64,000 nucleotides of DNA from Bryoerythrophyllum caledonicum (Eukaryota; Streptophyta; Bryopsida; Pottiales; Pottiaceae). The DNA is taken from positions 9,341,989-9,405,988 of the forward strand of contig OZ020518.1 in NCBI GenBank assembly GCA_963971425.1, written 5' to 3'. Made by a program: the position numbers and the translations under genes. Positions 3,470 through 47,770 of the stretch are shown piece by piece; the first letter of the stretch is position 1; every line of letters starts with the position of its first letter. Below the pieces are notes generated by a model that was not told where the DNA came from, made no database searches, and worked only from the letters and a program-made list of their open reading frames with translations.

Positions 3470-3665
3470 TGAGTGAGAGTGGAGAGTAGTGATTGAGAGT
3501 TGCTTGTAAATGGCGGTTTGAGTCATTAGTAAACTCTCAATGCATTCCATTTTACTACACACTCATTGATTCACCCATTGTGATGTGCGTGACGCTTAAC
3601 TGCTCTTGTGATACACAAGACTTCCACTTGACAAAGACCCTCCATTCTTACTACTAGATCTCTTG
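3470..3665 (+). repeat. LTR-like dispersed repeat, third (partial) copy
   Basis: This segment ('tttgtgagtgagag', 'gacgctta', 'ttgacaaagaccct') matches 5155-5340, the continuation of the 4966 copy. It seems to be the distal half of the same LTR-like family. Confidence 0.35.
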
Positions 3666-3669
3666 TTAT

Positions 3670-4965
3670 TAAGCTAGATTAATGTTGTAGCATGCGTTTA
3701 GACAATTCCAACACCACTAACAGCGCTTGAATCCGACAAATTTTGAAGAAGTTGAAAGTGGCGGAAGAATTGGAGGAGGAAGATGAGCTACTGGACCTGC
3801 AACGATTTCATCCATTGAACAATTTCTCATCCGTGGCGAGTTTCTCATCCGCAATTGGTTTTCATCCACTACGCGACTGTACATCCATTGCAATTTTTGT
3901 TATTTTTTCACGGATTCATCCACCGTGGGCAGTTTTCATCCATTGCGCATGAAATTGTAATTTGGGCAGAATTCACTTAATTGTGAGTTAACATCTTCCA
4001 AAATATTTGTTTTTTTTAATTCTCACTTTGAGTTAGAGCTCTCCATGGGGGTTTCTATCTAGAATGAAGGAAAGATTTTAATGGATTTTTTTTTCAAAAT
4101 CACATTTTTGTAGGTTGTAAAAATCAGTTTAGAGTTTAAACTTTGGAGGTATGTAACTAGGGAAATTTTCCTTGATTTTGAGTGAAATTTGCGCCTATAT
4201 TTAGCGCATTAAACCATTAATCTAATTTTGATATTGGATTGGTATTGAGCTCGTTTGTCATCCAATGTGTAATTTCCATTAGAGGGACTTGTGTTTCTGA
4301 ACACGGCAACTATAGAGTCCTATTACCTCCCCAATTTAGATATTAGAGGGACACTTTTGAGTGTTTTTCTTTACATTAAAGGTGTTGCAACTTGGGGCCA
4401 TCCACTGCAGACGTGTGTTGGTGGCTCTAACTCTTTTGTGCATTTCTGCTTACATATTGTTAAAGGAAGAGGATCTGGTTTTGATGTATGGATTCTTGTG
4501 GCGTACCTCCCTTGTGTCATGGGCTTATTGTTGGTGTTTTCCGGTGGCCCCATTTCTTGTTGTCCCTAGACTGAAATAGGGTACCGTAGGCATGAAGTCA
4601 GATTTATGGCTATCAAGATCTATTTATGTTGGAGGTTGTGATTGGACTTGTGGTAGCCGGAGGTGATGACCAGTGCACTACATAGTTTGGTGACTTTGTA
4701 GGTGTACGTTGCCAGTTTGTACCCTTGTCCTTTAGATAGTACTCGTAGGTAGTTCCCGAGGTGATTTTTTGCTTAAAGTCAGTATCCGAAGTCGGTATTA
4801 CCACTCCCCCTTACCAGAGCACCCGAAGTGGACTTCCACTGTAGACTTTGGGTCATGATTGGCTACGGACAAGGCTTTTGAGCCTGTTTTGGTACTAGGT
4901 ACCGATGTGATGCTCCAGGTCTAGGGCGTATGGAAGTTTGACGTGATGGAGAGTGATGTTACATG
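3670..4965. other. intergenic, nothing recognised
   Basis: Contains a cluster of 'TTCATCC' words at 3805-3940, an echo of the minisatellite to the left. The open frames near 4291-4579 overlap each other and lack family features, so no gene is called. Confidence 0.35.
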
Positions 4966-5345
4966 TCGTGGCATCAAGGGCCTCTCCGCATTGTAGTGTT
5001 TTAGCGTAGATTAGTTTGTTACTAATCTACGGGGTTTAGGAACGTACGGCGGCCCACTGCATTAATCCACGGATGATTTCCATCCACTTAGGGTTGTGTG
5101 TGTGTGCGTATAGCGCCGCACACATCCTTGACTTGAGGTTTTTGTCAAGTCAAGCTTTGTGAGTGAGTTTGAGAGTGTTTAGTAATTACCTTTGCTTGTA
5201 AGTGATTGTTTATCATTAATAAAGGCTTCGCATTTTCTTATGTTACTGGCACTCAACAATTCTTCCTTTGTAAAGTGCAAGACGCTTGACTATTCTTATG
5301 ATTTACTAGTTATTTACTTAACAAAGACCCTTCCAGGCTTCCACG
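4966..5345 (+). repeat. LTR-like dispersed repeat, copy 2 (longest)
   Basis: Starts TGTCGTGGCATC and aligns first with 1573-1780 and then with 3470-3665, so it is the fullest copy of this repeat in the window. The internal stretch 'ctaatctacggggtttagg' is conserved with copy 1. Confidence 0.4.
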
Positions 5346-17697: not shown

Positions 17698-20600
17698 ATG
17701 GCTACCTTTGAGAATGAGAGTGCTCGGGTAGTTGACAAGTTCAACGGAACCAACTTCAACCTTTGGAAGTTCAAAATGGAGATGGTGTTAGAGTCCATGG
17801 ACCTTTGGGAGATTGTGGAAGGCTCCGAAGAAGCGCCACCAAAAGTCGATGATCCAAAGGTGTTGAAGGACTACAATCGACGTGAGAAGAAGGCCATCTC
17901 CATCATTGGTCTCAATTTGGTGGACAACCAACTTGCCCACATCAAGAGTTGCAAAAGACGAGCGGAAGCATGGAAGACATTGTGCAACATCCACGAAACG
18001 AAGAGTTTGTCCAACATACTCTTCATTCGCCACAAGTTCTTCACCATCAAGATGCAAGAAGGTGACCCACTTGTTGACCCACATTAACCAAGTGAAGGCA
18101 CTTGCGGATCAACTCACTTGCTTGGAAGTCCCCGTGAGAGATGATGATGTGGTCATGACGTTGCTCGAGAGCTTGCCACCTTCGTTTGAGAACTTGATCA
18201 CCGCGTTGGAGACCTTGCGCATGAAGGACCTCACCATGGAGTTTGTGGTTGCGCGGATGATGCACGAAGTGTCCAACCGTAAGGAGAAGGAAGCGCATGG
18301 CGATGATGCGGCCTTGGTATCAAGGCAAAACAAGGGGGGCAACTCATATTTGCGTGGTGAGCCCAAGATGTGTTACAATTGTGGTAAACCGGGCCATTTT
18401 GCAAGAAATTGTTTCAAGCCGAAGAAAGGGGAGAGGGACAATGCAAATCAAGCAAAGGAGAAGGAGAATGCCAACCATGTGAAGGAGGACAATGACTATG
18501 CATTCACAAGTCAGGATGGACCACATTCAAAGTCCATGTACAAGTGGATCTTGGATTCGGGTGCGACAAAATACATGACTCCTCATAGGGGGGCATTTGA
18601 GACGTATGAGGTAATACCATCACGCAACGTTCATTTGGGTGATGATAGTGTTGTGGACGCCATTGGATTAGGTGCCATTGTTGTGGAAGTGCTTGTGAGG
18701 GGCCAATCGAAGAGGTTGACTATCAAGGACGTCCTCCACGTGCCCAAGTTGCAAGCAAACTTGCTCTCGGTGAGCAAGCTCGTATCAAATGGTATGAAGG
18801 TTCAATTCAATGTCAACGGGTGTACTATGAGAGCTCCAAACGGAGATGTACTTGCGGTTGCACCTCGAGAAGACAACTTGTACCAAGTAGCGTTCATGAA
18901 GATGTATGCGGCGGACGCGGTGAATATTGCACAATCATCAACAAAGAATGGTGGAATGGAGCTTTGGCATCGCCGACTTGGCCATTTGAATGTGAGAAGT
19001 GTCAAATTGCTTGAAAGCATGGTAAGTGGCATGAACCTTGGTAAAGATGAATCATCTATGCCATTTTGTGAAGGGTGTGTGCATGGCAAGCATCATAAGA
19101 CTCCATTTCCAAAGGATGGTGGCACACGTACATCAAAGCCTTTGGAGATCGTCCATTCGGATGTGTGCGGCCCCATGAGGACGACGTCTATTGGTGGTGC
19201 AAGGTACTTTGTAACCTTCATTGATGACTTTTCAAGAAAGGTGTGGCTGTATATGTTGAAGACAAAGGAGGAGTGGCTTCAGAAGTTCAAGGAGTTCAAG
19301 GCGCTTGTAGAGAACCAATCCGGGCACAAGATCAAGGTTTTTCGATCGGACAATGGTGGAGAGTTCATCTCCAAGGCATTTCAAGGCTACTTGAAGCATC
19401 ACGGCATCAAGAGGCATCTTTCAACACCATATACACCGGAGCAAAACGGAGTGGCGGAGCGTGCCAACCGCACCATAGTGGAGATGGCAAGGAGCATGAT
19501 CCACGCTCAAGGCCTCAAGCTTGAGTTTTGGGCGGAAGCGGTGACCAATGCGGTGTACATCCGCAATCGGTGCCCCACAAGGGCTCTTGTCACCATCACA
19601 CCGCAAGAGGCTTGGAACGGCCGCAAGCCATGTCTTGCACACATACGTGTGTTTGGATGCATTGCTTATGCGATGGTGCCAGATGCGAAGAGGGGTAAGC
19701 TCGATGCAAAAGGTACAAAGTGTTTGTTTCTTGGATATTGCGAGGGCACCAAGGCATATCGCCTCATGTGTGTTGAGACGAAGAAGATCATTCGAAGTCG
19801 TGATGTGGTGTTTATTGAAGATAGCACAAGTGTTAATCATGGTTTGGAAATGAGTCCAAGTGGGAGTTGTGAGTCGCCTCCGTTGGTTGTGGTGGACAAA
19901 TCTTCCAAACCAAGTTCCTCGAATGATAGTGAGGATGGTGATTCCAAGGAAGAGGAGGAGGTGGATGACGATGCAAGCGTGGCGCCATCATGCTTACCAT
20001 CTTCAAGCGGTGAAGAGGCAAGTGGAAGCACTCATGGGCCTCGATATCCACAAAGGGAACGGCGACCACCTGGAGAGTGGTGGATGAGCCACATCTTGCC
20101 GAAACAAAAAGTGAAACATGCAAATGTGGCGACTCTCGAAGATCCTTTGAACTTGTGTGAAGCCATGCGATCGGAGGATGCAAGCAAGTGGGAGAAAGCC
20201 ATGCAAGAAGAGTATGACTCACTAATGGCCAATGGAACATGGGAATTAGCTCCCCTTCCAAAGGATCGCAAGAGCGTTGGATGCAAATGGGTGTTTCACA
20301 CAAAGAAGGATGCTTCGGGTCAAGTCATACGCCACAAAGCAAGGTTAGTGGCCAAGGGATATTCTCAAGTTGAAGGAGTGGATTTCCTTGAGACATTTGC
20401 TCCCGTTGCAAAGTTCAACACCATTCGATGCATCCTTGCGCTCGGAGCGGCGTTGGACCTAGAGATTTATCAAATGGATGTGAAGACCGCATTTTTGAAT
20501 GGCGAGTTGGAGGAAGACATCTATATGAGCCAACCTCAAGGATTTGAAGAGAAGGACTTTGAGCATCTTGTGTGCAAACTCAAGAAGTCGTTGTATGGAC

Positions 20601-21730
20601 TCAAACAATCACCAAGAGCATGGTACCAACGCATCGACTCATTTTTCACCAAGGAGGGCTTTACAAGGAGTGAAGCGGATCACTCATTGTATATCAAGCA
20701 AACGGGTAAGTACTTATTGATAGTTCTCATCTATGTAGATGACTTGATCATCTTGGCTAGCCTTCCAGAGAAGTTGACATGGCTTAAGGGCAAGCTCGAC
20801 ACGGAGTTTGACATGACCGATCTTGGTGAGTTGAAGTATTGTCTCGGTGTGGAATTTGTGAGGGACCGCAAGGCACGCACCATCACCATGAGTCAAAGGA
20901 AGTACATTGAGGAGGTGCTCAGGCGTTTCAACATGGAGGAGAGCAAACCCATTGGTACTCCACTCGATGTGAATGTCAAGTTAATGAAGCTCTCGGAGGA
21001 AGAGTTTGAGGCCATTCAAGGTGAGATGGATGGCGTGCCATACAAGAGTGGAGTTGGATCATTGATGTATGCCATGGTGGCCACACGGGCCGACCTTGCT
21101 TTTGCGGTGAGCATGGTGAGCCAATTCATGTCAAGGGCCGGTCCTTCTCATTGGAGTGCAGTGAAGCGCATCATGCGGTACTTGCAAGGTACCATGGACC
21201 ACAAGCTATGTCTTGGTGGTAAGGACATTGCTTTGAGGGGATACTGCAATGCGGATTGGGCAGGAGATACCAACGAGCGTCGTTCGACAACGGGATATGT
21301 GTTCTTTGTTGGCGTTGGTGCCATCTCGTGGAATTGCAAGAGGCAACCAACCATTGCGTTGTCTACGACAGAGGCGGAGTACATGGCAACTAGCCAAAGT
21401 ACAAAGGAGGCCATTTGGCTTCGTAAACTTTTGGCGGATGTTGGCTTTGTTCAACAAGGAGCAACAACCATTATGTGTGACAATCAAGGGTGCATTGCTC
21501 TTGAAAAGAACCCTACACACCACTCACGCTCGAAGCACATCGATGTGCAATACCACTTCATTTGCGAGAAGTTGGAGAGTGGTGAAATAAGCTTGAAGTA
21601 TTGTCCAACGGAGGACATAGTAGCGGATGTGTTGACAAAGGCACTTGCAAAGGAGCGGCATCAACGATTGACGAAAGCGATGGGATTGCGAGAAGGTAAC
21701 TACTCGCAAAGTGGGAGTGTTGGAGTTTAG
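17698..21730 (+). CDS. copia gag-pol coding region
   Basis: Element-encoded polyprotein region starting at ATG 17698. Visible landmarks in order: gag N-terminus FNGTNFNLWKFKMEMVLES; zinc knuckle CYNCGKPGHFARNC (about 18370); protease WILDSGATKYM (about 18545); GAG-pre-integrase LWHRRLGHLN (about 18965); integrase core with HSDVCGPM, DDFSRKVW, RSDNGGEF and PEQNGVAERANR; reverse transcriptase with KARLVAKGYSQ and the catalytic YVDDLII (about 20730); RNase H with STTEAEYMA, DNQGCIAL and SKHIDVQYHF. The reading ends in the first bases of the 3' LTR, as is usual for copia. Codon use is GC-balanced and consistent, unlike the decayed elements around it. Confidence 0.9.
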
Positions 21731-25215: not shown

Positions 25216-26520
25216 CCCGGTAAACCGATCACGCAAGCCCGGGTTCCTACTACAACCACACCCAATAAATCAAACCAAGAAGATACAAGACTCACATCAA
25301 GTTAGTACTAAGCAAATCATATGAGCAAGACAACCTTCCACGGGGATCGTCGGAACTCATCCACTACAAGGGTAGAAACCGCGGAATACTCCGGACTCAA
25401 GCTTAGCCCGGATCTCTCCCGGTGTACGAAGAGGGGTGGTATCACCCCTCCTCCCTACCAATCCAAACACTTCTCATTTAGGGAAGGCTATCATGAATAG
25501 CCGTGGGCTTCCCGGATCTCACTCCACCTATCTAACCTAGATATCCTACACCCTTGGGAAGTCTCTACTCACACTCAATCACATAACTGAAAACAAGTCA
25601 CAACCTTGTACACCTAGAAAAGACACACTAGGAAGGCTCAACTCTCTCCCGATCTATTCATACAAGCTCAACAAAGACTCTAGACACAAGCCATGAAGAC
25701 AAGACACGAGCCAATCAACAAAAAGAAGATATTTAACAGAAGGCTCTTTAAGTACACAAAGGCTACTAACTACCCTCCAAAACTTAATCCCCAAAAGGTA
25801 GAAATGGCATCTAGAGCGTGCACTAAAGTCAATAGCTACCCTCCAAACTAGATCCCCAAAAGGTGGAAATGGCATTTAGATAGTGCACTAAAATCAATAG
25901 CTATCTTCCAAAAGTAGATCCAGAAAAGGACAAAACGGCATCTAGATCTCAAAATCAAGGATAGCCTAGTCAATAGCAGATTACCGGTAGAGCGGTAAAT
26001 CGAAAGACTCCCGGTTTGGGACCGGTGAACCTTTTGCTAACAAAAGTAAGTAGCCGGAGAAACCACTCAAGTGGTAGTGACCGGGTGCGCAATGGGGCTC
26101 CATCAACATCACTACTCTTATTCTAGTATTTAAATCTAGCAAACTTAAACAACATCCCACCAACCGGTGGGATAAATCAACAATAACACATAATATATAA
26201 CAAAGGCTCAACCGGAAGACTCTTCCGGATGATCCATAGAGGGATTGTCACTACGGTTGGAAGTACCCACATGGTCAAGAAAATCCACCGGGAGGTCGGA
26301 TGTCTCAACCGGGAGGTCTACCGGTGGATTGGTAATATCTATCGGGAGGTCTACCGCTGGAGTAGGAATATCGACCGGAAGGTTGAATGTATTTATAGAT
26401 ACACGAGGAGTCTCCTTGATATCAATTAGTATAGCCACAGAGGACTCCACCAAGGACCAGGGTTGTCATACTGGACGGACGTCCGGTTCGCCCATCCGGT
26501 AGAGGTCTCGCTAGTCCTAT
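25216..26520. other. CCGG-rich remnant right of element C/D
   Basis: The continuation, across the C/D insertion, of the sequence at 9489-9804. It includes a perfect 8-bp-stem hairpin at 25431-25450 (GAGGGGTG/CACCCCTC) and a tandem repeat. At 26453-26208 (minus) an 81-codon frame is rich in PVDLP/PVDIP repeats (NLPVDIPTPAVDLPIDITNP), like the proline-rich tails of the gag-like elements. I take this as the worn remains of another family member. Confidence 0.4.
25769..25965 (+). repeat. 65-bp tandem repeat, three units
   Basis: Units begin near 25769, 25836 and 25901 with 'CTA(C/T)C(C/T)TCCAAA', each followed by 'ccaaaaggt(a/g)gaaatggcat' and 'gtgcactaaa'. Identity falls from the first to the third unit. 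Confidence 0.75.
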
Positions 26521-27098
26521 ACAGTCAACTTAGAGTTGACTTACCATCAAGGTAAAAAACACGCAACGTGGCGGCCACGTTGGCACCACAGCGCTGCCAC
26601 GCAAGATAGGGACGTGTTTAAGTAGGGGCGAGGACTAAAGGGAAGAGGGAGGCAGTACGGCGACGTCCCCGCTCCTACCAACGCATGGGTGGAGATGTCC
26701 CAGCCCTACCCATGAAGGGGCGGGGATGTTCAACCGTTGATGGAACAGATTATAGTGTTTAAAGTTACCGTATATTGGTAGTGGAATTTGGAGGGTGTAC
26801 TACTTTAACTATCAATAAAGTCTTGCAAGAATTTTTTCACTTTGAATTAGAGCGGTTCACATGTGCACTAGGTTGATAGCTTTGCATTGACACATTAAAT
26901 GTGAAGAAAATATTTATACCCAATTATTGGTGATTGAAAAAATGCAAATCTCAGACTGAAAATTTAAAAATTGGATGTATACAAAATTGATTAAATGAGG
27001 TGTATGGCAATTGCCAAGTACACATACTCTTCTACAAAAATGTTGTACTGTCTACTTAACCACCACATGCAAAACTAATGCAATTAATTAACAAAAAA
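26521..27098. other. intergenic, nothing recognised
   Basis: A GC-rich first part (to about 26750, with GGCGGCCACGTTGG and two inverted 'ccctaccc' words) passes into AT-rich sequence downstream of the kinase-like gene. No gene or RNA is seen. Confidence 0.35.
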
Positions 27099-28075
27099 CT
27101 ATTGTCGGTAACAACATAGAGGCATAGTCCAGCCGCGGGAGGGTTTCATTAATGTGTCTATAACATCTGGCATAGAAGACCGTTCACTCACATCTTTCTG
27201 TAGGCCTTCCAATTGTAGCTTCAGGTGTATATATTGCTTCGTATTTTTGGTGGTGAAATACTGTGTGTCCCATTTTTCTTGCTAAATACGAGAAAAAATC
27301 CAACCCACCGCAAATGCATCTGCTGCCTTGGAGTAGAGGTGTAACCGTTGCATGACTTCTAGCGAGTTGATGGAGCCCTGCTCCTCAAAAACATAGAACA
27401 GTTCTGGTGCTACAAACCGTCGCCGCTCTCTTTCCTCTCGAAACTACTCCATGAATCGATAACCATACCTTGATGGCTCATTCTCCACAACCCAACTAGA
27501 AAGTCCCCAATCGCAAATTCCTATCTACACTGCATCGGGTTTCCACTCATTAAGTGGAGCAAAACATTTGATGGAGAGATGTCATTGTGTATATAATTCG
27601 CGTCGTGGCATTTCTCCACAATAAGAAGCAACGATAGCGTGACGTTCAGTCGATTTTTGCGGTAAGTTTTTACCCACCAAAGCTCTTCGATCGACAACCC
27701 GGTATTTGGATGCATCTGAATCTGTTCAAACGGCAATGATTTGTCCACTTTCGAATCATATTTGGACCAAAAAGAAGCCAGAGATCCCCCATTCCACGAG
27801 AGCGTATACCCTTCCATAGTTTTCGGGTAGATGTACGTAAGTCTAATGATCCCTGGATGCACCACCGGACACCCTCCAGCCTCGTTGATAATATCTTGGC
27901 GCTTCTCCCTCTCGTTGGTGTTGGTCAGAGTCTTTCCGGCGAAGTAAATCCAACTTGGAATGTTTTCCAATTTTGTTATCATCACCTTCCGTACAGCCCC
28001 ATAGCCACCCACCGCTTTCTGTCCTGGCATTGGAATCACTTTAGCGCAATTTTCAAGCCACTTGAAAATGATAAT
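27099..28075 (-). CDS. protein kinase-like gene, damaged or recoded
   Basis: On the minus strand the sequence shows, in order, a glycine-rich loop (GGYGAVRKV), an AGKTL lysine motif, a long lobe with an HPGIIRL block, a catalytic loop HNDISPSNVLL (27600-27560; HND in place of HRD), a CDWGLSS activation motif in the DFG position (about 27510), VAPELFYV in the APE position (about 27405), and AADAFAVGW. It ends near 27099 with SRGWTM. An intron acceptor-like TTTTCAAG lies near 28070, so this is probably the last exon. Between the catalytic loop and CDWG the frame changes once (about 27550), and UAG codons stand in frame at 27525, 27444 and 27282. It is either a recent pseudogene or a gene read with a different code. 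The substrate is unknown; DWG for DFG and HND for HRD leave activity open. Confidence 0.6.
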
Positions 28076-37540: not shown

Positions 37541-40485
37541 TCCTAACTCATCAGTGTATGATGAGTTAAGATTTGAAGAAGATTTGCAAAAATTGAAATA
37601 ATTGAAGAAGGAAACAATGCAAAACATACATGCAATATTCATTATTCTCCACAAGGTAAATTTTTTAGTAATTATAGCCAGAAAGTTATTTTCTTAAGTG
37701 AGAGTGTAAGTACCTCCATTTTGTAGCATTTCTTTAGTAGTAGTAATAACTCCAGTCTCCAACTAGTGATTGTTTGTTCCCGATACTATGTCTTTGCCTT
37801 CATGACAAAAATAATATATTCTCTCTACTTTTCAATGGCCTTGAGTAAAATGTAATCAAATTATGTAGTGGACCTCATTTTGAAAAAAAACTCAAACCTT
37901 GCTATAATGTTTTAATAGGATACTCGTTAATTGAAAATTGAGGTTTGTTTACTTTAGTAAGAAGTCGTCAATTAATTATAAGGCCTTGCATGATCAAATT
38001 TAGGAATAACATGAGTTAGAATATTGAATAATCTCTTTTTAGGTCAAATAAACAATTTTGTCGATTTAATCACCGGTATTGATCATTTGGTTTAGATAAA
38101 GATTTTAGTTTGTTAAATCATGGATTTTGATCATTAGGTATAAAAAATTTGGTTGATTAATTGGTGAAAATTTGTTTCCAATGAGCACCTTAAATAATTT
38201 TACTATTGACTTGAAATTTTAAAATTAAGATTTATTAGGTTAAGAGGACAATCAATTAGGAATGAACGCTTATATTTTTTAAATAAAGAATCTATTCAAC
38301 TGCAAATAGGGTTTGTACAGTAAAAAAAGAGGATAAGTTAATTAGGACTCAATTCTTTGTATTCTTCAATTTTGGAATTATACAATCTAACTAAATACTT
38401 TGTTGAATGGGATTAGAAATTAATCTAAGAATATTTAGAATCTTGATTTATAAAAATCATGACTTTGGCCAATAAAATTTTGAAATTAAAGTAGAAGTTA
38501 CTTAATAATGATCACAATTTATAATCAAGATTGAGATGGAAATTAAGATTTTGATTACCTAGATATTAGATTTTGGTTGGTTAGTTTTAATTAGAGATTG
38601 AATAATTGAGACTAGAGGTTTGATTACTTGGAACCTAGATTTTAGTTAATTAAGACCATGGATTTTATGATTACAAATAGGGGCTTCATTAATAAAAGTT
38701 AGTGATTGTGTTGATTATGGTTTGGATACAAATTAAGTAGGATTAAGATTTTATTTAATACGTAGCTTTGTGAGGGTTTTTGGTACCAACTAATTGTGTA
38801 GACATACATGTCTAATGCGATTTTTTTCACATTTTTATAAGATAAACTGTTGTTATATTGAACCTATAGATTTTATGAAAGTTTTTAGACATTTATTATT
38901 AAATTGATGAAGAATTTTATGAATGAATTTCAGAAGAAAAAATTGAATACTTTATATCATGCATATCGTTTAATATTTTTAAGTACAATTAAAGTATTGG
39001 AAAAAACTTTTTTTTAGAAATGTGTTGAAATTGCCAAGAAAATAAAGTTTTAATTATGAAGGGTTGTAAGGTCCATAAGGATATGTTACTCTTATCATCC
39101 TTATTGTTTTAGCTAATTATTATACATGAATTCATAAATAGTTGATTGGTTTTTGTTTGTTTTTTTAAGTTTCGGAACTGTAATGTTTCTTTTTTGTTTG
39201 TATAAATAAAGTTGTAAGTGATGGTTTATAACTTTTAACCTTATCATTTCAGTAGATTATTAAGATTACTCATCATTATAACATACTCTGATATATAAAA
39301 AATATTATCTACTTAGTTTTTATTAATTTCACATAATATAAATATACACTCTAATTGACATTTATTATGATATAGAATATATATATAGAATTGAATTGCA
39401 TATTATGACCCAAAACCTATCCTTATTTGACCAAATCAAATCTATGCTTTATTGCAAACTATTTCATAAATTTACCCATATGATATTGTTAGTTAAGTAA
39501 CTATTCCAACTTTCTTGACCTTCTATTTTTTCCCTTGAAATTTCATATTGATTTAGACTAGGATTTTAAGAATAAACTTTGGTTGATTGATATTTAGTTC
39601 AATAAATTAGAGCATATATGTTAGTTATAATCAACCTAAACTAGTAATTTTTGTGAGTAAGATATGTCGTTTAGTCACTCATAACAAAGATAACTTAATA
39701 GTCCCTAGAGATCTATCTCCAAAACTTTTCTGAAAATATGAGCAAATCTATAAGAAAATCATAAGCAAAAAAATATATAAGAAAAATATATTCAAGCAAT
39801 AGTTTAAGCAAAATATATTTAAATTATCAAGCACTCTATGTATTTATATACAAATATTACAAGGTACCAAAAGTAAAAGTGAAAGTAAAAATTAATAAAT
39901 AAATAAAATTGTAACTTAAATCAACTTTTGCTGTAACTTAAGTTAACTTCATCAACTTAATTAGCTTGGGAACTCGGTGTTTTTGATTTTCGGAAATCAA
40001 ACAGGTTGGAAATCAAAGAGTAGTTGATTAGTATTTGGGTTGAGGTTGTGTGAAGAGCAGAGAAGATGTTGGTCTAATATGTTGATATAATTCAATCAAA
40101 ATACTATCAAATCTAAAATGCAAGTCATAGTCTAAACTAGGTCACTCTTGCAACAATAGCTTTACTTTAGCCATTGAAGTGAAAATAATGAAGAATCATT
40201 ACAAGATAACCGTACTCTACTGAGGTCAAAATTTGTTGATTTAGCAAAGATAAAGTACAGATGGTCAAGGGAATAGAGCATTCTCAAACGATTCCGCGTC
40301 AAAAGGTTGCAAGTCGTTCTGTCGTATCTCTTCATGTCATCAATAGTATGTGTCGTATAGCCACTTCACTACTACATATACTCATGATCTATGCAAATCT
40401 CATAAGAGCTACCCTATCATAAGCATACATAACATGTAACTATCAGCAAATCCACACAATACAAGGCAACCATGTAGAATTCCAC

Positions 40486-40530
40486 ACTTCCCCCCCTAGC
40501 TGAGTATAGCGCCCTCGCAACTCAGCTAGC
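40486..40530 (-). other. gypsy polypurine tract, 3' LTR start and adjacent hairpin
   Basis: Read on minus, AGGGGGGAAG is followed at once by TGTGGAATTC, the expected tract and LTR start. Just inside it, 40496-40530 holds a 10-bp inverted repeat (CTAGCTGAGT/ACTCAGCTAG) around a GC-rich loop. This could be part of the tract's structural context or chance. Confidence 0.5.
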
Positions 40531-40767: not shown

Positions 40768-41073
40768 TTACCTTGATTTCTTACACCGTAGGCAACTCCA
40801 ATCTCCTTCAGGAAGTGTTGCCAGAGCAAGACGAAGACATGCCATATGCCACCCTCTCTGACATTGATCACATAACAACATAGTTGCTGCGTCCTTGGTT
40901 TCTCCACAAACAAAACATCTATATCCAGCTGGAACCACCGCCATCTCTGGATATATTGATCCTTCAATAGGCAAATGACAAGGTGCACAATTCTTGGTAT
41001 TGTCCCTGCACTCTTGTCCATCTTTTCCTTCTAAAAGAAGGACCCCACTTGGCAAGATCTCTTTGACCTGCAA
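40768..41073 (-). other. PHD finger domain of the gypsy element
   Basis: Follows the integrase C-terminal region. The Cys4-His-Cys3 pattern is clear: CFVCGETKDAATMLLCDQC, then WHMAC, then DWSCLRCKK, with the PHD-typical Trp two residues before the final Cys pair. An NCAPCHLPIEG motif precedes it. PHD fingers read histone H3 tails. In gypsy elements a chromodomain often sits in this C-terminal place and guides integration, so this finger may have played that part. Confidence 0.8.
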
Positions 41074-41089
41074 GATGGTTCTACCTACT

Positions 41090-42440
41090 CAAACATCCAA
41101 GGTCGTAGGTGCCTCGCGTTGTAAATATACGTAATCACCCACTTGAAAACGTCGAAGCTGAGGTTTGTAAGCCCCGCTTCTAATACGTGTATAACGCAAC
41201 CTATCTCTATGTTGCGCTATTGCCAAGTTCTCCATAGCCATAGGCATGGCCCTTTGAAAATACTTAGCACGATCTTGTAGCACTTGTGCCAAAATCTTCG
41301 GATCATCTAAGTCCACAACAGGGTTTAGTTTCTCTCTTACTACCGAAGGCAATACAAGCTCTCTGCCATAGAGTAGATGATAAGGACTATAACATGCCAG
41401 ATAAGCTTGTCGACTGAAGCGATAATCCATCGCTATCCACGGTAGCTTGAGGTCTCAATCTCCATGATTGCCTGCTAGCAATCCATATTTGCGCAATCCA
41501 CGTTTGACTGTCTGAACCACTCTCTTTGCCAATCCATCTGCCTCTGGGTGGTCTCTAGAAGTTGTTCGATGATCAATTAAAGCTTTAGTGCAAAGCTCTT
41601 CAAAAGACCCAAGGAACTCCCTTCTTTGATCTGTCAACACCTCTGCAGGGACTTCAAACCTAGCTAGAACTCGATCTAGGAATGCTGCCGCTGCTAGCTC
41701 AGAGGAATTTTGTGGTAAAGCCACCAGCTCAATCCACTTGTTGAAATGCTCAACCATAACAAGTACATTCTTAGCACCTCGTTTTGTGGTCAGCAATGGT
41801 CTTGCAAAATCAAGACTCCACCTATAGCCCAATTCCATAATTGGTAATGGTTGTAGTTGGGGAGACAAGGTATTGAAGCTTGATCTAACCCGATCGCAAA
41901 CTTCACACCTCCCCACATAGGTTGCCACCTCTTGTTGCATGCCCATCCACCAATATTGACCACGCAACATTGAGTGTGTGCTTCGTACTCCAAAATGTCC
42001 CAAATCTTCATACATTTGCTGTATCAACTGAAGACATTGTTCCGGCCTAGGAACTATCCTCCGTGTTCCATCTTGCCATCTCCGAAATATAAGTCCACCC
42101 TCCCAATGAAATCTAGCCACACTTTGAGCTATCCGGTCCCCCTCTTGAGGTGTGGTATTAGGAAGAAACCCCCCATGTTGTAGAAGATATAAAATCCCTT
42201 CATCTCGCCATACATCAGTGGTGATTCTGGATCTTTTTTCATCTGACTGTACATCCACAACATTTTCCAAAGCTTCTTCAACAGTTTGGCCAGATTTCCC
42301 TTCCATCCATGCCAAATAAGCTGAAGCATGCCAACCTGGCACTGCCTCTTGGTCATAAGTACCGTGCCACCTCGCACCGGTCAAGTCCTCTTGCAATGGG
42401 CTTGGATTACGGCTTAAGCCATCTGCATCCAAATTTTGCA
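41090..42440 (-). other. integrase region of the gypsy element
   Basis: Shows the HHCC zinc-binding motif (HFGVRSTHSMLRG...CEVCDRV) and the catalytic core with SLDFARPLL, VLTDQRREF and the D-D-E glutamate in HPEADG. Downstream lie the conserved YSPYHLLYGRELVLP and a GDYVYLQRE C-terminal barrel-like strand. An RNase H end motif (LNLDADGLSR-like) precedes it. Confidence 0.85.
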
Positions 42441-42449
42441 ACTTTGCCT

Positions 42450-43890
42450 TTTAGACTACTTCAAAATCATATTCTTGTAATAATAATGCCCACCTCGCTA
42501 ACTTCCCTGTAAGCTTGTCTGATTCCATCAACCACTTAAGAGGTTGATGGTCAGTCACAAGTGTAAAGCTTTGCCTGTAAAGGTATGGACGGAAATGCGC
42601 CACAACCCATTCTACTACAAGACATTTTCCTTTGTAGGATGAATACTTGGCCTCTGCATCATTGTTACTTCGAGAAGCATATGCAATGACATACTCCTTT
42701 CCATCATCATCCTTTTGAGGTTAAACAACACCAATTCCCAATATACTCCAATTTGTATGGAATTGGAATAGTTGTCTTGCATCTGGCCTCCTCAACACTG
42801 GTGCTGAACCTAGTGCTCCTTTCAAGGCCTCAAATTCTTCTTGACTAGGGCCCCACATCCATTCTTGATCAGAGCGTGTCAATAGAGTCAAAGGTTTAGC
42901 CAAAAGACTAAAACCACGAACAAATTGACGGTAATAGTTTGCTAAACCCATGAAAGCTCTCAACCTTGACACATCTCTAGGAATTGGAATTCTATTTAAA
43001 GCTTCCACCTTCGCTTGTTGTACACTTAATCCTCCTCGCGTGATCATATGGCCCAAATAAGATAATTGATCATAAAAGAACTTGCACTTTCCATGATGCA
43101 AGCCAAGACCCCATTGTTGTAGCCTTTCAAATACTTGCTGCAAATGTTTTACATGCTCTTGTGGTGTATCAATAAAGATGATGACATCATCTATGTAACA
43201 TCGAGCAAATGGCAATCCCTTTAAGACTTGATCCATCACACGTTGAAATTCCGCTGGAGCATTCTTCAATCCAAAAGGTAAAAACTTCCAATGAAAGAGC
43301 ATATATCTTCCATCATCATCTACTCCCCAAAATGTTGTCTTTACCCAATCTTCTTTTCTCAATGGCAATTGGTGGTACTATGACCTCAAGTCCAAAGTAC
43401 TAAAGACTCTTGCTTTTCCAACTGCATCAAATAACTCCTCAGGTGTAGGCATAGGGTAGCGATCCGATTTGGTCTTCTTGTTAACTAGCCGGTAGTCTCC
43501 ACACGTACGCTTCTCCGTCCAATTTCCAAGAATGTCCTTCTTTGTTGGCATGACCGTTGCACATGCATATCACCATTTGAAAGCTCCACCAAACCTGCAT
43601 CAAACAACTCCTTGCATCGCAGTTTGACCCCATCTCTCTCAGAAATACTCAACTTGTATGGACGTCTAAATATTGGATAATCGTCTTCCAATTGTATTCT
43701 TACTGGCTTGCACTTATAGCCCTCTAAATCAGTGAGCTTGAAAGCAAAGCAGGCCTTGTACGAGCAAATGAAAGCTCGCACCTTCCGTGCCTCTACACCT
43801 GTGAGTCCCATCCCTATGTCCATCTCCCAATCCTTCTGAATTGGCAAGATTATATTCTTTCCTAAGGACTCCAATATAGGTGCTAGCACT
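42450..43890 (-). other. reverse transcriptase and RNase H region of the gypsy element
   Basis: The finger region has YPIFRRPYKLS. The palm has FHWKFLPFGLKNAPAEFQRV, and the catalytic YIDD box lies at about 43190 (CYIDDVIIF). LSYLGHMIT and FMGLANYYRQFV are standard Ty3/gypsy connectors, followed by an RNase H with AYASRS and TDHQPLKWL. Confidence 0.85.
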
Positions 43891-44252
43891 CCTTCTAGTT
43901 GCTAGTTGGATGAAGATGCATCATTGCCTTTTTCCAAGGCAATAGATGCTATCTTTTTATCATGAACATGAGCCAAAGGAGGTGTTTTCTTTACAAAAAA
44001 TATCTTGTTAAAAACTTCCTTGGCATTCTCCTTACCCAATTCTTGGGCCAATGCTGCCAAGACCCTTTGACCTCGTAATTCATCTTCTACAACCCATTCA
44101 AAGGCACCTCCATCCCGTGTCTTCATTCCTCTAAGGATTGTATCCCAGGCTTGCTTACTCTCCAGCCACACCTCTACATCTGGATGAACCTCTTTTGAAA
44201 TATCATAAGGTGTCATTCTACCATGTGTCCCATGGCTTGAAGACTCTACCCC

Positions 44253-45290
44253 CTAGCTTGAAGACTCTGCCCCTCGATGTCCATCCAAGCCACCATTTTG
44301 AAGCACTTGAGCTGCTAGACAAACCCCCAGAAACCAAGTCATGGAGTTTAAATCCATGGCTTGTCCAAGGATGTGGCGGCGTTGAGACTCTGTAATTCCA
44401 GAGCCAGCTGTTGTACCTATAAGAAATCCCATGGCTCTCTCACGTTCATCAGCACAAGGCTCACAAAGACTTTGTGTGCTAGTATCAAATACTAAGTCTG
44501 GTCCTCCAACACGAAATGCGAAAGATCGAGGATAACTCATGAATGTAGGCAAAGCCAAACGAGGCTCCCCTATATTATTTATCAAGGCAAATGGGGCTGA
44601 ATCTGTCTGCACCACTTGTTGAGAAAAGCGAATAACATCTAAAATGTGGTCAACATGCCTCCCTTGTGGACGTGTAAGTTGCCCCAATGTTGCGGAAATA
44701 CCAGGTGCGGAAGCCAAGTTTGTCCATTTCCACCGCAACCGATGTGCATAAGAACCAAAAGCTGTTGCATCCACTAGTACGGATTTTCTAAGATGTAAGG
44801 ACACCTCTGCTACAGCATTTTGCAATTGTGCATTGACCACGTCCAATGGTAGGACATTCTCAAAGATATAGGCCACATGAGTGGCTTGAAGGCGTTGCCA
44901 CCACTTCAACAACCATAATAGCTTCCAAAATAGAGCAGATCGAGGGTCTTGGAGGCCTAGACCTGGCCTAGCTCGGGAATGCCCTTGGCAAGGCCATCCA
45001 GCCATCACAAGGTCCACTCTTCCTAACCTTTGAAGATCCTTTTGGCCAATCAAAGCAATGTCCGATGGTAAACGTGACATACAACCTTGTATAGCACTTG
45101 CGGGTAATTGCGTTGGGTATCTCATCTGCAAGTGTTGAAGATGATATTTTGTTGTTGTACTGACAATGGCATTATTATCCACTTATGTATAACTTTGTAT
45201 AGATAATTCAGCTTCTAAAGCAGCAGCCAATCGTGTACCAAGTCCAGCAATAATTGTCAGCACAACAGCAAAACAAGAACTATGCCCCCA
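44253..45290 (-). other. cytosine-5 DNA methyltransferase domain of the gypsy element
   Basis: Methyltransferase motifs stand in the canonical order. A motif I-like AGLGTRLAAALE lies near 45225. Motif IV is DLVMAGWPCQGHSRARPGLG with the catalytic PCQ. Motif VI has FENVLPLD, motif VIII the YAHRLRW arginines, and the C-terminal motifs appear as ERERAMGF and GQAMDLNSMTWF. It fills the space between protease and reverse transcriptase in the same orientation. The canonical order is unlike the rearranged plant DRM enzymes and closer to DNMT3- or DNMT1-type domains. Charophyte and dinoflagellate retrotransposons with such domains are on record. Confidence 0.85.
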
Positions 45291-45839
45291 GCCTCTTTGT
45301 GAAGCTTCACAAACTTCTATAGAGAAGGCCTTGTATATTTTGGCTCCCAAAGGTGTTGATCAACATTTTTCATCAATTCTTGGCATTGATCCATCAAGCC
45401 TTTTGTTGAAGTCCAAGGTGGCGTTGGATCCTTTGGATGCCTAACAAACTTTCCCAATTGAGTTGGTACTTGCATGTCTGATTGTGGAGGTGAATCCAAT
45501 GAAGACATATTTTCCTCAAGTAGCAAATCACCAGATGCAAACCACTCGGCAACGCATCCATACATCGCTACTTGTCCATGTATTAGTTTTGCACTGGCAC
45601 CAAAGGTAACATGGAGTATTTCCTTTCTTCCATCTCCTTGAGACCAACCCGGTTTAAATCATGTCTCCTTAGTCCAGCAATCGTGACCAATACCAATGGG
45701 GTACAATGCTTGTTGCCCTAAAAGTATATCATAAGTGGTGGCACCCGTGATCACACATCTTACAGATATGTGAGTATATGCATCGTTGCCCACCTTGAAT
45801 TATAGCCTTAAAGGTTCTTTTGTAAGCCCTGTTGGATGT

Positions 45840-46060
45840 TATGTGCCTCCAAGAGATGTTGCAATTGTAAAAGGGCATGGATCAAGGTCTTCTGCTTTAA
45901 TACCTAGGCTCTCTGTTAGGTTCTTTTCCAACATAATTGGTTGAGCCCCTGTATCAAGCAAAACCTTTTGTGGGTACACCTTAGAACCATTACCTTTAGC
46001 CACAGAAAATACATGGCCTGAATTGGCCAATTTAACTACCCTTCGAATAAACAATTTCTT
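45840..46060 (-). other. aspartic protease region of the gypsy element
   Basis: VLLDTGAQPIMLEKNLTESLGI carries the DTGA catalytic motif in a retroviral-type protease setting. It marks the most 5' part of the element that remains. Confidence 0.6.
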
Positions 46061-46204
46061 TTCAATGTGAATAATAGTACAATGATAATAGTTCCTTGTA
46101 TACCAATTTTTAGAAGTAGAGAAGGAGTGTAGCATGTTCAAAACAAGTGTGCAAAGAGTGGAGCTTCAAAAATTGCCAATTCACGTTTTCATTTCTTTTT
46201 GAAC

Positions 46205-47134
46205 TTAACCCCTAAAGGACCAAACGTCCCCCCGGGGTCATTTTGGATTTTGGGCATGTACCTACAATTCGAAGAAAAATCCTTTTTAATTGAATTTTTT
46301 TTCAAGATAGGATTTGATAAGAGCTTCGTGGAGATATTTTTTATTGTTTTTTGGATTTGTGGTTTGAAAGTTAGTACCAATTAAAGCCAAAGTGGGGACT
46401 CCGGGCACCTCCAAAATTTTTGGCAAAAGTTTCTATTGACATTGAGATTTTTTGCATGTATATAGAATATTTCCTTCTTTAGAAATTTTCAAAAAAAATC
46501 TTGTCTTTAGTGTAAAAAGGCATTTTATTCCAAATCAAACATTTTCACACATTGTCGGGCAACGGAGGAAAAAAATTTCATCTTTTCTACATAAAACCTA
46601 GAGATCTTCCTATTTTTCACTTTTTATTTTTTCAACAACAATATGTGGTGAAAACCTTCTTATTGACTATTTGGATTATCATTTCAATACATGTGTAGTT
46701 CACAAAAAAATAAAACGTGAAATGGCATTTTTTGAACCTCCACTCCTTGCACACTTGTTTTGAATATGCTACACCCCTTTTTTACCTCTAAAAATTGGTG
46801 TGTTGGGAAATAACATCATGCTTAAGACTATGGTAAAAGATTTGGACCTTGTACAATGCAAAAATTTGATACAAAATGAAGTCAAAGTCAGCTGAGATAC
46901 TCAACGCAGGGATGAAAATGAACCATTGTTTTGACTTTAAACACTAAAATCTATCAATCCGTGCGGTGGATTGCAACAAAAATTTGATGGCATGTTTATA
47001 TGGAAGTCTGTTTTAAGATCTTACGGTTGAAAATCCAAAATTCACTTTAAAATGTGATTTTCATGTCTCTTTTTGACAGTGGCAGTTTTGGACTGGTTTT
47101 AGAGCGAAATAGGTCGTTGTACTTTAGGGGTTAA
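46205..47134 (+). mobile_element. TTAA-family TIR element nested in another copy
   Basis: Element 46209-47130 (922 bp) begins CCCCTAAAGGACC and ends ACTTTAGGGG, with TTAA at 46205-46208 and 47131-47134. Uninterrupted copies elsewhere read GAACTTAATATG at this spot, so the empty site is visible and the insertion duplicated exactly TTAA. No transposase frame is present; it is non-autonomous. Ends and target fit piggyBac-like elements (Kolobok also uses TTAA). Confidence 0.8.
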
Positions 47135-47236
47135 TATGCTTACAAATGATATTCCAAATGGTCAATAAGAAGGTTTACATCACATCTTACAGTAGGAAAA
47201 ACAAAAAGTAAAAAGAATTAAGATCTCTAGTTTTTA

Positions 47237-47770
47237 TGTAGAAAAAAAAGGGTTTCAAATACCTTGCCCAACAATGTGTGACAAAGTCAAAAAAATTCAC
47301 ACTTTGTCACACATTGTTGGGCAAGGTATTTGAAACCCTTTTTTTTCTACATTAAAGACACAAAAAAAAACATTATGAAAGGAAATGATATTAGTTGCTA
47401 GTGTTGAAAATCTCACATTCAATAAAGTGTCCTAACAAAAGTTTTTGACTTTGTCACACATTGTTGGGCAAGGTATTGTGCCTTTTTTGTGTCTTTAATG
47501 ACATGCTATTTTTTTGACTTTGTCACACATTTTTTTGACTTTGTCACACATTTTTTTGTCTCACATTCAATAATGTGTCCTAACAAATTTTTTTGACTTT
47601 GTCACACATTGTTGGGCAAGGTATTGTGCCTTTTTTGTGTCTTTAATGACATGCTATTTTTCATTAAAGACACAAAAAAAAACATTATGAAAGGAAATGA
47701 TATTAGTTGCTAGTGTTGAAAATCTCACATTCAATAAAGTGTCCTAACAAAAGTTTTTGAAGTTGCCCAA
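47237..47770. repeat. palindrome and local duplications inside the outer TTAA copy
   Basis: 47237-47350 is a perfect or near-perfect palindrome of about 114 bp centred on 'aaaaaaattcac', with 'accttgcccaacaatgtgtg' in each arm. 'attgttgggcaaggtattgtgcc' and a block from 'cattaaagacac' to 'agtgtcctaac' are then repeated up to 47770. The pattern suggests template switching. Confidence 0.8.

Follow-up and report, generated by a model that had tools for sequence, protein, structure and literature searches.

Why should a retrotransposon carry a gene for a cytosine methyltransferase (MTase)? Cytosine methylation is one of the main marks that plants use to silence such elements, and it is therefore puzzling that a family of them should encode its own MTase under selection. 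The question is raised by a 64,000-nt stretch of Bryoerythrophyllum caledonicum DNA on a 32-Mb contig (hereafter the window), in which a sequence-only reading had noticed the PCQ and FENV motifs of an MTase between protease and reverse transcriptase (RT), in the orientation of pol, and had proposed capture by a Ty3/gypsy element. Retrotransposon-borne MTases are already known, and what is new here is a richer variant that has a leaky-stop context and a PHD finger. DNMT3 members have been recorded in retrotransposons of streptophytes and dinoflagellates (PMC12344493, citing de Mendoza). The dinoflagellate elements SymbioDIRS-Dnmt3 and SymbioLINE-Dnmt carry cytosine MTases, and KnitGypsy-Dnmt3 of Klebsormidium nitens joins gypsy domains to an intron-less DNMT3-type MTase that is under purifying selection and was published as lying within the Pol ORF; a figure legend describes its repeats as DIRS-structured, with gypsy domains (PMC5890265). 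The passages of the same article on expression in yeast report CG methylation for the Symbiodinium DIRS enzymes only, and no methylation by the Klebsormidium enzyme, in a test that the authors call inconclusive (PMC5890265).

The window element is a decayed copy of a Ty3/gypsy-type retrotransposon that bears a cytosine MTase. It runs on the minus strand from position 46041 down to about 40320, and protease, MTase, RT, RNase H, integrase and PHD finger follow one another on that strand, placing the MTase between protease and RT in pol orientation as had been proposed. Pfam matches above cut-off cover the MTase, RVT_1, RT_RNaseH, Integrase_H2C2, rve and PHD, while Asp_protease_2 reaches 21.6 bits, under its cut-off of 24.3. 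The MTase frame matches PF00145 (DNA_methylase) with 26.8 bits (cut-off 22, E 4.3e-6) and contains WPCQGHS, FENV and a C-terminal GQAMDLN. Motif I is cut off from this frame by a stop and is read in a different one, upstream of 45182, in a region (45183..45658) where stops and a frame change interrupt the spacer and the MTase N-terminus; the boundary of 45290 given earlier is thus about right. The integrase H2C2 and rve matches fall within 41455-42450, and the C-terminal part of the integrase is 79% identical to that of L040, a full-length relative.

Table 1. Features of the window element (positions in the 64,000-nt window).
Feature	Position	Strand	Evidence
Protease remnant	45839..46041	-	tblastn 97% over 66 aa to copy L039; truncation just upstream, Gag missing
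Post-protease spacer and MTase N-terminus with motif I	45183..45658	-	82% to L039 over 113 aa
Cytosine-5 DNA methyltransferase, DNMT3-like	44253..45182	-	Open frame of 309 aa; PF00145
MTase-RT linker, last codon the conserved TAG	43902..44252	-	88% to L039
TAG CAA CTA, conserved in-frame stop in type I readthrough context	43896..43904	-	Motif as defined in PMC3542737
Reverse transcriptase	42721..43901	-	RVT_1 83.5 bits; frame change in window copy
RNase H	42451..42720	-	RT_RNaseH 95.9 bits
Integrase (H2C2 zinc domain, rve core, C-terminal part)	41089..42450	-	Integrase_H2C2 54.6 bits, rve 46.5 bits
PHD finger, end of integrase frame	40768..41088	-	PF00628 41.6 bits, cut-off 24; 73% to L040
Polypurine tract CTAGGGGGGG	40490..40499	-	Read from sequence; same motif in L040 and L107
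3' terminal repeat region, start	40320..40489	-	79% over 300 bp to kin copy L107

Along 3.9 kb (46041-42117) the window copy is 93% identical in nucleotides to L039 on another contig, and the blastn alignment begins at 46041. The window copy is dead and 5'-truncated: Gag is missing, and premature stops and frame changes interrupt what is left. This broken state, the minus-strand placement and the PHD finger after the integrase are additions to the earlier description. No second copy of the terminal repeat was found within the window. Dense nested direct and inverted repeats (46083-47765) adjoin the truncated element on its upstream side and may be part of insertions that took away its 5' part. 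Elsewhere in the window, stretches at 3515-5329 match L040 (subfamily B) in its terminal repeat and 5' region at 73-83% identity, and by this similarity appear to be a fragment of a second superfamily member. The plus strand has an uninterrupted 1287-aa frame at 17867-21730 that resembles a Ty1/copia polyprotein by eye. Positions 26455-28067 are 76-92% identical to L039 8080-9577, the flank of the L039 copy, where they overlap a kinase-like frame, and on this evidence would be a repeated gene fragment.

Full-length relatives show the architecture of an undamaged element. In L040, ORF1 (1353 aa) comprises a Gag part, protease and MTase, and ORF2 (1047 aa) comprises RT, RNase H, integrase and PHD finger; L104, of subfamily C, has frames of 1371 and 1041 aa. 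In both, a single TAG separates ORF1 from ORF2, with no change of frame. MTase, RT, RNase H, integrase and PHD give Pfam matches above cut-off in each, L104 has a CCHC zinc knuckle in addition, and the protease matches of both are under cut-off.

We compared a profile of 15 relatives of the MTase with the PDB and found 56 sequences at E <= 0.01, led by DNMT3A (1e-23) and DNMT3B (5.7e-21) and followed by 4onj, named 'DNA methyltransferase' (6e-13), DRM2 (3e-10), HhaI (3e-9) and DNMT2 (1e-5); none of the 56 is DNMT1 or CMT by name. NCBIfam gave only the general dcm superfamily, below cut-off, plus weak chance matches. Thus, the element MTase is DNMT3-like as judged by the PDB profile comparison, which here stands in for a tree with host DNMT1, CMT and DNMT3. 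The enzyme is under purifying selection in two subfamilies: for MTase plus linker, the median dN/dS is 0.25 in subfamily B (11 copies, 55 pairs, with L077 and L078 dropped for frame changes) and 0.19 in subfamily C (11 copies, 51 of 55 pairs having dS > 0.01, with L087 and L089 dropped). Keeping L078 in subfamily B gives 11 pairs with a median of 0.84. Among 23 copies of subfamily A, to which the window copy belongs, and kin, close pairs (dS < 0.05) stand near or above 1, with a median of 1.24, and deep pairs (dS 0.5-2) have a median of 0.17, indicating selection on active lineages and decay of dead copies. Of 24 copies in subfamilies B and C, 22 keep WPCQG, and in subfamily A 22 of 25 keep PCQG.

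Taken as a whole, we think it fairly probable that the window holds a dead copy of an MTase-bearing Ty3/gypsy-type family in which a leaky UAG places the MTase at Gag level, the MTase methylates cDNA and the PHD finger serves in targeting. Intact relatives would make Gag, protease and MTase from ORF1, and at the UAG-CAA-YYA signal, which is observed, some ribosomes would read through into RT, RNase H, integrase and PHD finger. Made at the level of Gag, the MTase would enter the particle with it, where it would most likely methylate newly made double-stranded cDNA, either ahead of integration or in the course of it. The benefit to the element, as we infer it, would be that new copies arrive bearing a host-like mark and could escape sensing, or deamination and cleavage. 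The PHD finger may direct the integrase to chromatin in a particular state; among solved structures it comes closest to the fingers of the chromatin proteins PHF12, CHD4, Cph2, KDM5 and PHF21A, several of which read the histone H3 tail unmodified at K4.

The enzyme could instead act on RNA or RNA-DNA hybrids, or dampen the element so that the host tolerates it. Both roles are discussed by de Mendoza et al. (PMC5890265), and a DNMT3-like fold leaves the substrate undefined. We nevertheless consider a role other than cDNA methylation rather unlikely, given that the closest solved structures of the element MTase are DNA methyltransferases and that the Symbiodinium DIRS enzymes act on DNA in yeast (PMC5890265).

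To place the family, we collected relatives of the window MTase from a protein database and found 50 at E <= 1e-3. Across all protein searches, the relatives that carry a species name come from Marchantia polymorpha and Calypogeia fissa, from Sphagnum compactum and S. fallax, from several strains of Closterium and from Klebsormidium nitens; many others carry no such name. Entries from Closterium, Klebsormidium and Marchantia are single long proteins with MTase and RT; one search was limited to the best 120 of 912 matches, many of them Closterium proteins matching a non-MTase part of the query. No relatives were found in the public genome_contigs and viral_contigs collections. P0004, 51% identical to the window MTase, is named a DNA cytosine methyltransferase of a Candidatus Obscuribacterales bacterium and probably entered a metagenome bin as contamination from a plant retroelement. 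A second domain order, (RT-)RNaseH-MTase-integrase-PHD, occurs in the public proteins P0081, P0083-P0085, P0092, P0099, P0101, P0103, P0106 and P0108, mostly from metagenomes.

In an RT tree compared with gypsy elements of the same genome only (rows under 300 aa unused; P0096 and 11 near-duplicates left out), the 21 MTase-bearing rows fall on one side of a 100/99 branch and the 12 other gypsy rows on the other. The MTase-bearing side includes both domain orders and Klebsormidium, whose place inside the group is unsure at 89/93. No MTase was seen in the comparison elements L041-L060 (best E 1.8), in a search that recovered two cut-down MTase-bearing controls at 1e-22 and 4e-5; for L061-L066 the pieces are too short for one to show, and among the MTase matches listed, compared by eye, none falls within 10 kb of them. 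The MTase tree (57 of 97 rows) has a Closterium clade (100/100) and a clade uniting the subfamilies of this genome with liverworts (98/96), within which subfamily C groups with the liverworts (98/94). A further clade (95/93) comprises all nine rows of the order RT-RNaseH-MTase-integrase-PHD plus three partial proteins, indicating that the MTase moved within the element or that the order arose separately. The two trees disagree mildly on the placement of Klebsormidium.

According to de Mendoza et al. 2018, the Klebsormidium element acquired its MTase independently, within that lineage (PMC5890265). Since the RTs lie in one branch, it seems, on the trees, to be part of an older and wider lineage. 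Several separate captures of a host DNMT3 by related gypsy elements would agree with the published account, with the existence of the second order and with the position of P0096, which an earlier RT tree placed outside the MTase-bearing branch. In addition, the MTase trees include no host DNMT3, because the best PF00145 match in the genome proved bacterial-looking; the trees favour the older lineage and leave a single capture unproven. We regard repeated capture as doubtful all the same, as all 21 MTase-bearing RTs, of both orders and with Klebsormidium, share one side of the 100/99 branch and the second-order rows make up one MTase clade. The PF00145 match in question, L001 (G000:C14:16014858-16018817), is a bacterial-looking MTase adjoining a transposase-like frame inside a 22-Mb contig. 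It was rejected as a host DNMT control on these grounds and is probably contamination or a chimeric join.

We examined the stop that follows the MTase in 62 loci: 30 of subfamily A and kin (L009-L038), 7 + 12 of subfamily C (L002-L008, L079-L090) and 13 of subfamily B (L040, L067-L078), of which 24 B and C loci had been picked with a bias to long frames. TAG-CAA-YYA is present in 49 of the 62 (20 + 6 + 12 + 11), TAG-CAA-CGA in four and TAA-CAA-YYA in two, and in seven the site is unreadable, shifted or lost. A stop dividing MTase from RT is thus read in 55 loci, and likewise in L040 and L104; L008 has an additional stop between the TAG and the RT. The codons after the stop are CAA-CTA in A, CAA-TCA in B, and CAA-CCA in C, L036 and L038, such that the amino acid at the last codon varies while the YYA pattern is kept, the four CGA loci excepted. 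These four (L025, L028, L029 and L032) belong to a kin subfamily outside the YYA rule, though their first frames reach as much as 1400 aa.

Tobamoviruses have UAG-CAR-YYA as their consensus for type I readthrough (PMC3542737), and as in tobamoviruses and benyviruses it stands here at an in-frame stop between coding regions. The difference is that the stop divides Gag-protease-MTase from the RT of a retroelement, where readthrough is predicted. The conserved UAG is probably a leaky stop, and because it follows the MTase, the MTase would sit upstream, on the Gag side. ORF2 might be made by other means, with ribosomes reinitiating or entering internally, or with a spliced or subgenomic RNA as template, which would keep the MTase at Gag level and change only the coupling. 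The four loci with CGA in place of YYA and the two with TAA speak for such a route. We nevertheless find it improbable: ORF2 is in frame with ORF1 and its first Met is residue 117 in L040 and residue 82 in L104, so that separate initiation at Met would lose the preceding region, and the hexamer fits the plant-virus signal across subfamilies that have different amino acids there. Among public proteins, near relatives and several Marchantia entries have a first frame that stops short of the RT, and P0072, P0076, P0113, P0117 and Klebsormidium P0120 run through the MTase into the RT. Leaky stops may therefore belong to a bryophyte-side clade, as far as gene models do not hide stops, and with MTase and RT in one frame in charophyte-type relatives, Gag-level placement would not be general.

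The family is present in many copies and is partly young. Across the genome (437 Mb in 894 contigs), the window MTase matched at least 128 places, from 1909 first-look candidates, and a third-subfamily query at least 93, from 2217 candidates; compared by eye among the matches listed, the two lists have nothing in common on contigs C1 and C2. RNase H gave at least 150 matches; those covering positions 1-100 of the profile, 32 in number, were set against 98 of the 128 MTase places. For 27 of the 32, an MTase lies no more than 6 kb upstream on the same strand, and in 25 of these the distance is 2154-2307 bp. This recurrence of one gene order at near-fixed spacing, for which a search of the genome had been suggested, upholds the proposal of an MTase captured in a Ty3/gypsy element. 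The MTase does not group with a host gene beside unrelated sequence; it groups with MTases that are parts of retroelement polyproteins from Marchantia, Calypogeia, Closterium and Klebsormidium. A chance juxtaposition of a host or bacterial MTase gene with unrelated retroelement debris, for which the bacterial-looking L001 could be cited, is ruled out for practical purposes by the number of places, by the order and spacing held across so many copies, and by the single long MTase and RT proteins of Closterium, Klebsormidium and Marchantia.

The element ends are unusual. L040 begins with a 365-bp repeat A, and its 3' end consists of the polypurine tract, B1 (108 bp), A2 and B2; A1 matches A2 at all but 3 of the 365 places. 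Six of six further B copies have B1-A2-B2, with B2 partly matched in one, and five of the six have A1 at the 5' end. One subfamily C copy shows B1-A2-B2 as well (B1 and B2 98.7% identical over 239 bp), with 210 bp of A1 identical to A2. Split direct repeats of the form A1-genes-B1-A2-B2 are thus found in all seven B copies read and one C copy, in place of ordinary long terminal repeats. In the window's own subfamily, no split repeats were found in the stretches read. Subfamily B elements end in TGTC...GACA and are flanked by a 4-bp target duplication, perfect in five of the six copies with both ends readable and with one mismatch in the sixth, L040; the ends of the seventh are unreadable. The B1|A2 junction reads ACACGACA-GC-TGTCACGGGA in seven of seven copies and looks like the end-to-end junction of a circle, suggesting an LTR-style cDNA circularised through a CACTTGA overlap of its ends. 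Reading for a primer binding site by eye gave no tRNA match.

PAT/DIRS-type elements also have split direct repeats arranged A1-genes-B1-A2-B2, as do subfamilies B and C, but they insert by tyrosine recombinase and are not known to duplicate the target. Subfamily B differs in its 4-bp duplications (5/6 copies) and its rve (DDE-type) integrase; no tyrosine recombinase is among the Pfam matches listed, in which Integrase_H2C2 and rve stand above cut-off instead. Split repeats together with target duplications hint at an unusual integration route. A broader reading, which we hold to be possible yet unlikely, sees one ancient streptophyte lineage that unites a Gag-level DNMT3, a PHD-integrase and split repeats inserted by rve, its cDNA being circularised via the CACTTGA overlap, methylated, then cut and inserted at the junction; circularisation would here precede integration.

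Measured against known systems, the family shares with Ty3/gypsy elements the order protease, RT, RNase H and integrase, with the MTase inserted between protease and RT, and in subfamily B the short (4-bp) target duplication of an rve integrase, and departs from them in the split repeats of B and C. Like chromoviruses, it has a chromatin-reader domain after the integrase, a PHD finger here as against a chromodomain there; no chromodomain is among the Pfam matches up to E 0.1 (window) or 0.01 (L040, L104). SymbioDIRS-Dnmt3 likewise carries a DNMT3-like cytosine MTase, but SymbioDIRS and SymbioLINE are other classes of retroelement, and DIRS elements use a tyrosine recombinase in contrast to the rve-type integrase seen here. 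The nearest likeness is to KnitGypsy-Dnmt3, with a DNMT3-type MTase in a gypsy polyprotein, an RT on the same side of the 100/99 branch, and DIRS-like repeats there set beside split repeats in B and C here. K. nitens P0120, presumably that published element, has protease-MTase-RT-RNaseH-integrase in the order of the window family. However, P0120 (marked partial) has no stop between MTase and RT and no PHD match, whereas the window family has the leaky-stop context after the MTase and the PHD finger. No MTase-bearing gypsy element in bryophytes, or with a leaky stop, was found in the literature at the level of titles and abstract openings, a scope that leaves out most subscription papers and all bioRxiv preprints; the main text of one survey of plant LTR retrotransposons uses neither the word methyltransferase nor the word PHD (PMC6317226). 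The combination of Gag-level DNMT3, PHD-integrase and split repeats with an rve integrase was not found together in the literature searched.

These elements bear on how a retrotransposon family may live with the mark that silences it. Given the stop after the MTase, the enzyme is predicted to be plentiful in the particle and not a minor Pol product, and relatives in Marchantia polymorpha make the question testable in a genetic model. The acquisition published for the lineage of Klebsormidium seems to be a single tip of a broader lineage among streptophytes. If the broader reading were true, hosts would be confronted with element DNA that is circular and already methylated, and the strategy would have been retained all the way from Klebsormidium to bryophytes.
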